Positions 2,610 to 9,164 of a DNA stretch of 64,000 nt are shown in pieces (positions within the stretch are counted from its first letter, which is position 1; each line of letters opens with the position of its first letter). Position numbers and translations under genes: made by a program. The notes beneath the pieces were generated by a model. That model searched no databases. It saw only the letters and a list, made by a program, of their open reading frames with translations, and was not told the origin of the DNA. The DNA is from Flavobacteriales bacterium. GTDB taxonomy: Bacteria; Bacteroidota; Bacteroidia; Flavobacteriales_F; PHOS-HE28. The stretch covers positions 567,964 to 631,963 of the forward strand of contig JAHCIA010000001.1 of assembly GCA_026129465.1 (NCBI GenBank), in the 5' to 3' direction.

Positions 2610-3257
2610 ATGCGCATCCTTCTGACGCTCTCCATCGCCCTTCTCCTGGGCGGCAGATCCGGCCTCCATGCCCAGTACAACGAGCGTGGCACCGTGCATC
2701 TCGGTCTGGGCATCGCCCTCGGAGCGTATGGCACCGAGTATGAGCAGACCATCACCCTCTTTGGCATCCCCTTTCTGACGCGTTCCACCGGTGGTGCGGC
2801 CACCATCACCGCGCCCCTGGAGTTCCACTACGGGCTGGCCGACATCTTCAGCCTGGGCGTGTACGCCGAAGGAGGCCGCTACATCGATTCGGTGGAGACC
2901 AAGCGCAACACCATCACCGCCTTCGGGCTGCAACCACGCTTCTACCTGGTGGACCGCGACCGGTTCTCCTGGATGGCCGGCCTGCAAATGGGCGCCACCA
3001 CCCTGCGGATCGATGATCCCGTAAGCACGGGCAGCCCCAAGAGTCTGCTGCGCGGCGGACACTTCGGGATCAACACCGGCGTGGGCTTCCGCTTCGGTGA
3101 GACCGTGGGCCTGCAGGTGATGCTGCGCTATCTCGCACACAACCTGCCCTTGCGCGAATATGAGTTCATGGGGCAGCAGTTGGACCTCGACCTGGTGGAC
3201 GCTGAGTTGCGCGCCCGTGGCGTGATGTTGCAGACCTCGCTCCACCTGCGTCTTTGA
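2610..3257 (+). CDS. Predicted outer-membrane beta-barrel protein
   Basis: 215 residues. The ATG at 2610 begins a clear signal peptide (MRILLTLSIALLLGG, cleavage near HAQ). The mature part consists of alternating short amphipathic beta strands with many Gly and aromatic residues (for example FGLQPRFYLVDRDRFSWMAG), typical of an 8-10-strand outer-membrane barrel of the Bacteroidota OMP_b-brl type. The upstream in-frame extension to 2562 lacks signal-peptide character and was rejected. It stands alone, ending just before the cobalamin riboswitch promoter. The specific function is unknown. Confidence 0.8.
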   Translation: MRILLTLSIALLLGGRSGLHAQYNERGTVHLGLGIALGAYGTEYEQTITLFGIPFLTRSTGGAATITAPLEFHYGLADIFSLGVYAEGGRYIDSVETKRNTITAFGLQPRFYLVDRDRFSWMAGLQMGATTLRIDDPVSTGSPKSLLRGGHFGINTGVGFRFGETVGLQVMLRYLAHNLPLREYEFMGQQLDLDLVDAELRARGVMLQTSLHLRL

Positions 3258-3279
3258 TCGATCGCCGCGTCTACATTTG
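3254..3279 (+). promoter_or_regulatory. Promoter for the riboswitch transcript
   Basis: A perfect -7 box TACATTTG at 3272-3279 with an upstream TTG at 3254-3256 (15-base spacer, slightly short of the usual 17-23). Transcription would start within about 10 bases, right where the riboswitch begins. Confidence 0.6.
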
Positions 3280-3286
3280 GACCCGC

Positions 3287-3482
3287 GTCAAGGTGCCGAA
3301 AGGCGATGGAAGGGACCCTTCACCGGGAGCCCGAAGCCGCCCCAGGAGAATAGGGAATCCCGTGTGAACCGGGAGCTGTTCCCGCAGCTGTGAACCACCG
3401 ATGACCGCCGCAGAAAGCCACTGTACGCCACCTGGTGTGCGGGAAGGCGTGGTGGGAGGGTGGTGAGCCAGAAGACCTGCCA
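3287..3482 (+). promoter_or_regulatory. Cobalamin (adenosylcobalamin) riboswitch
   Basis: All hallmark segments are present in order: AGGTGCC near 3290; AGGGAATCCCGTGTGAACC around 3351-3369; GGGAGCTGTTCCCGC and GCTGTGAA at about 3370-3394; the B12-box core AGCCACTG at 3416-3423; and the 3' closing segment GTGAGCCAGAAGACCTGCC at 3463-3481. Cobalamin riboswitches normally switch off expression when B12 is plentiful. The aptamer sits upstream of, and in the same direction as, the T9SS beta-propeller gene at 3607. This is the best-supported RNA regulator in the window. Confidence 0.95.
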
Positions 3483-3505
3483 GGGCGCGAAAGGACCACG
3501 GCCAC

Positions 3506-3550
3506 GGGAACATGGCCGTCCGCTTGCGGTACAGGCGGTCGGCCGTTCCC
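3506..3550 (+). promoter_or_regulatory. Hairpin in the riboswitch expression platform
   Basis: GGGAAC (3506-3511) plus GGCCG (3514-3518) can pair with CGGCCGTTCCC (3540-3550), with a two-base bulge. A second short hairpin, GCCGCG/CGCGGC, lies at 3570-3588 just before the start codon. Neither is followed by a T-run, so control at translation initiation is more likely than transcription termination. This is inference from pairing only. Confidence 0.45.
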
Positions 3551-3606
3551 ATGGTTTCACATCATACACGCCGCGCGGTGAACGCGGCAAGCAAAACCAC
3601 AGGACC

Positions 3607-4893
3607 ATGTACCGTTCATTCCTCATTTCCCTGGCAGTGGCCGCGGCGTTCCATGCGCAGGCCCAATCGGTGACGCACCGCGTGCTGGTGCTCAACGAAG
3701 GCTACTACGACTTCGGTGGCGGCGGGCAACTCGTACCCGTGTCGCTTGGTGCCTTTGATCCATCCACCGGAACCTACGGGACCGTGGCCGTGATCGAAGG
3801 GCCACGCTTCGGCAGCGATCTGCTGGTGCATGCGGGTTCCATCTATGTGGCCGCTGACGACCGGGTGCTGCGCTACGACCTGGAGAGCTATACGCTGCTG
3901 GCCAGTGCGGAGGTCATCGGTGTACGCAAGCTGGCGGTGTGGAACGATAGGCTGTTGCTGACCCGGGGCGAACTCGGCGGATTGCCGCACTACTTCGAAG
4001 CGCGCGAGATCGCTTCGCTGGACCTCGTGCAGGCGATCACCCCTGCGGATGGCTTGCCTTATGCGGTGGAAGACGTGCTGGTGGTGGGCGATCTGGCCTA
4101 CCTCGCCGTGGGCAACGCCTTCGAATGGGGCAATATGCAGGGCCGCATCGGCATTGTGGACCTGCCCACCATGTCCTACACCGGCGAGGTGGACCTCGGC
4201 CCCCAGGGTCTCAACCCCGAGAAACTCATGCTGCACGATGGGGACATCCTGGCCTTCAACAACAAGGATTTCAGCACCAGCAGCATCAGCCGCGTGAACA
4301 CTGTGGATGCTTCCCTGACCTATACCGTGGATGTGACGGTGAACTCCAGTTGTGCGGCATCGGCCCGTGTGGAAGCCAATGCTCTGGTCTACTTCATGGA
4401 GTACGCCCAGAACGAGCTGGCCCGCTTCGATCCCACGTCCGGCGCCGTGGCCGACACGCTCACCGGCAGCCCCGCCATCTACGGCCTGCTCGAGGACCCC
4501 ATCAACGGCGTGCTCTATGGCACCACCACCGATTTCTTCAGCACCGGTGCGTTGCATGTAATGAGCCTGCAAGGGGAGGTGCTCTCCACCGTGGCGGTGG
4601 GTGTGGCGCCCGGCAACCTGGCGCTGGATATCCGGCAGGCCACGTCCGTGCCCGATCGTGCCAGCGCAGCACCGCGGGTCTTCCCCAATCCGGCCACCGA
4701 TCTGGTCTCCGTGTCCGGAACAGCGGTGAAGGCCGGCCAGTGGATCGCCATCCACGATTCCATGGGCAGGCGGGTGATGGAGCAGCAGGTGCGCACCGAT
4801 GGCCAGCAGTCGCTGGAATTGACCGGCCTGGCGCAGGGCGCTTATGTACTGCGTGTGGGCGAAGGCCCCGGATCGCGCTTCATCAAACACTGA
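3607..4893 (+). CDS. Riboswitch-controlled secreted beta-propeller with T9SS sorting domain (BtuG-like B12 capture candidate)
   Basis: 428 residues. Start chosen at ATG 3607 because it opens a signal peptide (MYRSFLISLAVAAAFHAQAQ); the frame extends upstream only through the riboswitch. The central part (about 25-345) has repeated short beta-blade sequences such as GSIYVAADDRVLRYDLESYT and GVLYGTTTDFFSTGALHVMS, typical of YncE/DUF5074-type surface propellers. The last ~75 residues (FPNPATDLVSVSG onward, ending in FIKH) are a T9SS type-A sorting domain, so the protein should be exported and anchored at the surface. Bacteroides BtuG, a surface propeller that binds B12 very tightly, has a similar fold and cobalamin control, but it is a lipoprotein partnered with BtuB. 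Here no btuB is adjacent. B12 binding is inferred. Confidence 0.85.
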   Translation: MYRSFLISLAVAAAFHAQAQSVTHRVLVLNEGYYDFGGGGQLVPVSLGAFDPSTGTYGTVAVIEGPRFGSDLLVHAGSIYVAADDRVLRYDLESYTLLASAEVIGVRKLAVWNDRLLLTRGELGGLPHYFEAREIASLDLVQAITPADGLPYAVEDVLVVGDLAYLAVGNAFEWGNMQGRIGIVDLPTMSYTGEVDLGPQGLNPEKLMLHDGDILAFNNKDFSTSSISRVNTVDASLTYTVDVTVNSSCAASARVEANALVYFMEYAQNELARFDPTSGAVADTLTGSPAIYGLLEDPINGVLYGTTTDFFSTGALHVMSLQGEVLSTVAVGVAPGNLALDIRQATSVPDRASAAPRVFPNPATDLVSVSGTAVKAGQWIAIHDSMGRRVMEQQVRTDGQQSLELTGLAQGAYVLRVGEGPGSRFIKH

Positions 4894-4974: not shown

Positions 4975-5049
4975 GCCTCCTTAGCTCAGCGGTAGAGCAG
5001 CTCATTCGTAATGAGCAGGTCGTCAGTTCAAATCTGACAGGAGGCTCCA
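4975..5049 (+). tRNA. tRNA-Thr (anticodon CGT)
   Basis: Cloverleaf by eye: acceptor GCCTCCT (4975-4981) pairs with AGGAGGC (5039-5045), anticodon stem CTCAT/ATGAG with loop TTCGTAA giving anticodon CGT, T-arm GTCAG-TTCAAAT-CTGAC, discriminator T and an encoded CCA at 5047-5049. It is a stand-alone gene with its own promoter box and a downstream terminator. Confidence 0.96.
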
Positions 5050-8936: not shown

Positions 8937-9164
8937 TCACTTGCGCTTGGCGGCCTTCTTCGTGGCCTTCTTGGCGGCCTTCTTCGGAGCGGCCTTCTTG
9001 GTCGCCTTCTTCGCAGCCTTCTTCGGAGCTGCTTTCTTGGCGGCCTTCTTCGCAGTGGCCTTCTTGGCAGCGGCTACACGCGTCTTGCGCTTCGCAGGAC
9101 GGCTCTTGCCGGTGCTGCGAGCAGCACGTTTGCCTTTCTTCGTCTTCATGTCACCTTTTCCCAT
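8937..9164 (-). CDS. Histone H1-like Lys/Ala-rich DNA-binding protein
   Basis: 75 residues, almost entirely Lys, Ala, Arg, Pro and Thr, with tandem motifs of the KKAAKKAAPKKAAKKATK type that resemble bacterial histone H1-like tails (Hc2/AlgP/HU-tail style). The protein should be strongly basic and nucleic-acid binding. A second in-frame ATG at 9149 is preceded by AAAAGGTGAC, an unusually good Shine-Dalgarno for this genome, so the true start may be 9149 (70 residues). It is convergent with pdxH across a shared terminator. Confidence 0.8.
   Translation of the reverse strand: MGKGDMKTKKGKRAARSTGKSRPAKRKTRVAAAKKATAKKAAKKAAPKKAAKKATKKAAPKKAAKKATKKAAKRK

Follow-up and report, generated by a model that had tools for sequence, protein, structure and literature searches.

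BtuG of Bacteroides thetaiotaomicron (BT1954/BtuG2, BT2095/BtuG3 and BT1490/BtuG1; PDB 8bmx, 8bmy, 8okv and 8blw) is the closest structural match to the propeller protein described here. The btuG gene adjoins btuB in 106 of 109 btuB operons (PMC6143338), and in BtuG2 the loop from Asn54 to Thr64 grips the ligand while Tyr316, Trp194 and Trp272 narrow the cavity (PMC10404256). BtuH, BtuJ (DUF4465) and BtuK of the same species are surface proteins that bind B12, stand under riboswitch control and do not belong to the core btuBFCD system (PMC8941943, PMC12751083, PMC13398666); unlike the propeller, these are lipoproteins encoded in loci with btuB.

The window, that is, the whole 64,000-nucleotide stretch analysed here, originated from a Flavobacteriales genome (3.88 Mb, 99.7% complete) in which a single cobalamin riboswitch was found. 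A preliminary description of this DNA had proposed that a complete cobalamin riboswitch with its own promoter precedes a secreted propeller with a tail for the type IX secretion system (T9SS). The following features, given in window coordinates, were located.

3272–3279, plus strand: candidate -7 box (TACATTTG) for a Bacteroidota promoter of the sigma-A type, an exact motif match.
3329–3480, plus strand: cobalamin riboswitch aptamer RF00174 (84.6 bits, E 2.1e-19).
3506–3550, plus strand: hairpin 3' of the aptamer with the conserved loop UUGCGGUACA, from folding and leader alignment.
3570–3588, plus strand: covarying pre-start hairpin with the invariant loop CGGUGAA, from a 22-leader alignment (A5; the window and 21 genus leaders).
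3607–4893, plus strand: predicted T9SS-exported, BtuG-like propeller protein of 428 amino acids, from the invariant start of its orthologues and its fold.
3607–3666, plus strand: signal peptide (residues 1–20) without a lipobox cysteine, predicted by reading the sequence directly.
3670–4641, plus strand: propeller domain (residues 22–345; the VIA-align range to BtuG structures is 21–345).
4351–4353, plus strand: codon of Cys249, a residue shared by all 46 homologues and aligned with BtuG2 Trp272.
4678–4887, plus strand: T9SS type A sorting domain (residues 358–427), with PF18962 and TIGR04183 above cut-off.

The Rfam model search of the window scored the aptamer well above the curated gathering score of 31.5 bits. 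The riboswitch of the preliminary description is thus real, and only its boundaries had to be redrawn, with the aptamer proper at 3329–3480 inside a leader of about 3280–3606. The proposal that it has its own promoter also held, insofar as TACATTTG fits TAnnTTTG, the flavobacterial sigma-A -7 box consensus (PMC9723704); an exact TAnnTTTG was present upstream of the riboswitch in nine of 23 genus leaders. A predicted outer-membrane barrel protein of 215 amino acids is encoded at 2610–3257, 5' of the riboswitch, and similar proteins are likewise placed in several relatives. Being upstream, this gene lies outside riboswitch control.

Folding and leader alignment placed two hairpins between the aptamer and the start codon. 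The second ends 18 nucleotides 5' of the AUG and has no further copy in the window. Across the 22 leaders 99.2% of its cells were paired, compared with 85.4% in shuffles; four of the six pairs carried compensatory changes, and pairing was lost when the partner was slid. In outgroups, and in those sister genomes whose B12 locus is the other one (described below), the platform differs: the region that aligns here contains a TTTCAGGA or TTCGGGA hairpin. An idea formed by eye, that the loop of the pre-start hairpin pairs with an upstream TTTCAC, was dropped because the partner is missing in several leaders. A search for an intrinsic terminator 3' of the riboswitch found none, and the leader would act by controlling either translation start or its own folding. 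Judged from its sequence, the riboswitch would repress the propeller gene in the presence of B12.

The start codon at 3607 was assigned from 14 aligned orthologues, in which Met-Tyr-Arg-Ser is invariant, and the Ala-Gln at the end of the signal peptide is conserved among orthologues as well. The T9SS tail matched PF18962 (E 2.8e-8) and TIGR04183 (E 2.7e-8), both exceeding their curated cut-offs, and a type A sorting domain was present in all 14 orthologues. The T9SS outer-membrane channel SprA (PF14349) is encoded in the same genome (E 5.6e-159). The downstream neighbour of the propeller open reading frame is a tRNA-Thr gene (4975–5049), which makes it probable that the propeller transcript is monocistronic. 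Farther along the window, at 8946–9074, short tandem repeats of 12–39 bp would, if read on the minus strand, encode a tail rich in Lys and Ala and similar to histone H1.

Tails of type A generally go with attachment to the surface. This general expectation, rather than anything direct, argues against a B12-binding propeller that is released instead of anchored and scavenges cobamides in diffusible form or on vesicles. Such release appears quite improbable, even with the precedent that B12-binding lipoproteins of B. thetaiotaomicron are enriched in cobalamin-delivering vesicles (PMC12751083).

Searches against Pfam and NCBIfam, and with phmmer against the PDB, gave no name for the propeller, and matches to designed SAKe and Kelch proteins were set aside since they rested on one short repeated stretch. 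An AlphaFold2 model built from the 14 orthologues (pLDDT 85.5) showed a seven-bladed propeller followed by the sorting domain, so that the secreted, T9SS-tailed propeller of the preliminary description was borne out. The best 13 Foldseek matches in the PDB were chains of BtuG or its homologue 3dsm, and most had a cobamide bound. The best 11 matches in VIA-align were likewise BtuG, with Z of 31.6–34.4 and rmsd of 2.1–2.4 over about 300 residues, which agrees with the BtuG-like fold that had been suggested. BtuK1, also a propeller by structure match (VIA-align Z 26.6), is further from this protein than BtuG. The next fold in VIA-align was 1l0q (Z 30.8), and further propellers, among them lactonases and BamB, have the fold in common with Z of 28–31. 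With 1l0q and the lactonases scoring so near to BtuG, the fold alone is no proof of function. It could also belong to an enzyme, adhesin or scaffold that does not bind B12 and is needed under B12 scarcity, given that riboswitches are able to control functions besides uptake. The rank of BtuG at the top of both structural searches speaks against that reading, which we consider unlikely.

Sequence comparison with BtuG was closer to its limits. The propeller profile matched BtuG chains at E 0.001–0.002, a marginal similarity, and DUF5074 was matched in one of the 14 orthologues (E 0.0018); for the BtuG lipoprotein profile of sister genomes, the match to BtuG of solved structure had E 1e-86 or lower. 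An hhalign comparison of the propeller with BtuG lipoproteins gave 90% probability in a register that was off from the shared end motifs, and residue correspondences were for this reason based on a joint MAFFT alignment instead. Conservation was assessed over 46 homologues ranging from the genus to Saprospiraceae. Asn30, Glu31 and Gly32 (conserved in 42, 45 and 45 of the 46, respectively) align with Asn54-Glu55-Gly56 of BtuG2, and Tyr292 (46 of 46) aligns with Tyr316. A conserved Trp174 lies one alignment column away from BtuG2 Trp194, and BtuG2 Trp272 is replaced by Cys249. These pocket motifs in common with BtuG2 weigh further against a propeller that does not bind B12. In BtuM a conserved cysteine is the axial cobalt ligand for bound cobalamin (PMC6072759); by analogy, ligation of cobalt by the Cys249 thiolate may be offered as a guess.

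The propeller therefore shares with BtuG its seven blades, the Asn-Glu-Gly motif, the pocket tyrosine, a strongly negative domain (net charge -23, compared with -18 for BtuG2) and predicted control by a cobalamin riboswitch. It differs in having a T9SS tail instead of a lipid anchor, with no cysteine near the end of the signal peptide, in probably being alone in its transcript, and in the invariant cysteine at the pocket Trp272 site. The BtuG lipoproteins of sister genomes have the lipobox cysteine. Because it lacks two defining features of BtuG, the lipid anchor and the btuB partner, and has only marginal sequence similarity, the propeller is not BtuG in the strict sense and was not filed as such. 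Of the BtuG-type role in the preliminary description, the elements, the fold, the T9SS route and the solo arrangement stood; what did not stand is BtuG by its usual definition of a lipoprotein with a btuB partner and clear similarity. In line with that description, the propeller is probably a B12-binding protein, to go by sequence and model.

The genome encodes the B12-dependent enzymes MetH, methylmalonyl-CoA mutase and an IcmF-like mutase, and one FecCD permease for which BtuC was the best model, at a score below the BtuC cut-off. The absence of btuB beside the propeller, already remarked upon, extends to the whole genome: a profile search for Bacteroidota-type BtuB found none at E 1e-25. 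About 20 TonB-dependent receptors are present (20 plug domains), none of which was singled out for B12. One of them (L209:8623-11040; in the window's own genome, C1:2778625-2781039) is present in 44 of 44 genus genomes, irrespective of their B12 locus. Homologues of this receptor with about 40% identity lie directly upstream of a riboswitch-propeller pair in Crocinitomicaceae (L158:3286-5685 and L160:3247-5697). By sequence it may be named as an unproven candidate B12 receptor. It was not retained as a partner of the propeller since it occurs in all btuB genomes too, a distribution that is not specific to the propeller.

These receptors bear on the reading in which a divergent BtuB, unlinked and outside riboswitch control, is hidden among them, with the propeller as its detached, T9SS-anchored, BtuG-like partner. 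The 20 plug domains and the Crocinitomicaceae arrangement leave room for this. The profile, however, recovered BtuB1-3 of B. thetaiotaomicron at 1e-37 to 1e-100 and nothing here at its threshold, and the genus-wide receptor is no more tied to propeller genomes than to btuB genomes. We regard a divergent BtuB as a plausible competitor that falls somewhat short of even odds.

The propeller was found in 24 of the 45 genus genomes. A cobalamin riboswitch lay directly upstream of the gene in all 24 and was the sole one found in each, and the BtuB and BtuG lipoprotein profiles had no match in any of them. The same profiles gave strong matches in 16 (BtuB) and 15 (BtuG) sister genomes. The other riboswitch loci of the genus, read one by one, mostly consist of the riboswitch, a T9SS-tailed tandem protein, btuB and a BtuG lipoprotein. 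Of the 30 genomes with completeness of 90% or more, the propeller locus was present in 16 and the btuB locus in 13; one had neither and none had both. The genome with neither (G005; 99% complete, same genus) is without propeller, BtuB and cobalamin riboswitch and keeps a BtuC-like permease; this is due to a gap in the assembly or else marks a third state. Non-overlap of the two loci had a chance probability of 1e-8 with kinship ignored. On trees, two to three independent pairs were informative, all in the expected direction and too few for significance, so that the statistical case for exclusion is modest.

The two loci are interleaved across the genus, with at least four changes on the RpoB tree and at least three on the conserved-receptor tree. 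A single clade of btuB genomes was rejected (p-AU 8e-43, quick tree), and the window's genome is sister to the btuB genome G024. Insofar as repeated exchange is expected of functional equivalents, this pattern suggests that the propeller locus and the btuB-btuG locus have equivalent roles. That the propeller locus has been exchanged with one of a known B12-uptake type also counts against a propeller that does not bind B12.

In the btuB locus, the T9SS-tailed protein (A4) has two copies of one domain, in which no Pfam domain was found, and its model was of low confidence (pLDDT 61). The best 13 rows for this domain in VIA-align were beta-domains of intrinsic factor, transcobalamin and haptocorrin (Z 10.7–11.6). 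Members that are the first riboswitch-controlled gene include L081:480-1601, L082:534-1655, L086:8196-9305 and L088:514-1623, together with their orthologues. Like the propeller, this protein has a T9SS tail, a cobalamin riboswitch, first place in its locus and a fold related to B12 binders; unlike it, the domain is transcobalamin-like rather than a propeller, and btuB and btuG follow. Both alternative loci thus start with a T9SS-exported protein whose fold is related to known B12 binders.

Outside the genus, scanning named genomes returned 54 relatives. At 15 loci, in Chitinophagales, Crocinitomicaceae and other Bacteroidota, the riboswitch was directly upstream. No riboswitch was seen at many marine and Saprospiraceae homologues, and its absence from several of the marine ones is a point in favour of a propeller that serves some other function. 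No BtuB was found at E 1e-20 in 20 outgroup genomes, a weaker result insofar as this search of genomes lacked a positive-control genome.

Taken together, these observations are best read as a B12-repressed, T9SS-exported, BtuG-like B12 binder that works without BtuB, the vitamin passing through another TonB-dependent receptor. We assign this reading a probability of roughly 0.68. At low intracellular cobalamin the riboswitch would permit expression of the one-gene transcript. The signal peptide would then direct the product across the inner membrane and the T9SS across the outer membrane, where the tail would be removed and the protein probably anchored at the surface. The central pocket of the propeller would capture cobamides, as BtuG does, and supply the cell, with the vitamin passing a different TonB-dependent receptor and then the BtuC-like ABC permease. 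A different receptor is proposed because BtuB was undetectable both here and in the 23 relatives with the same locus. With BtuB undetected, the vitamin may enter by an undescribed route. A specific form of this, a BtuB-independent route in which the T9SS-anchored propeller passes cobamides to a TonB-dependent receptor that does not belong to the BtuB family, perhaps with Cys249 binding cobalt, is put forward tentatively and is rather doubtful as a whole.

More broadly, the analysis reveals a riboswitch-linked family of T9SS-exported, BtuG-like proteins encoded on their own, in genomes where BtuB is not detected, an arrangement that recurs in 24 members of the genus and in other orders of Bacteroidota. 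No description of such a family was found in the literature searched, and one may exist elsewhere. The Bacteroidota B12 systems in the literature cited here combine lipid-anchored binders with BtuB. In the present family the same RNA switch would control a protein with a different export route, in genomes that have B12 enzymes and a BtuC-like permease but no detectable BtuB. Which receptor replaces BtuB is now a directly testable question, and the propeller offers a specific gene through which many uncultured Bacteroidota of freshwater, activated sludge and soil may obtain B12.
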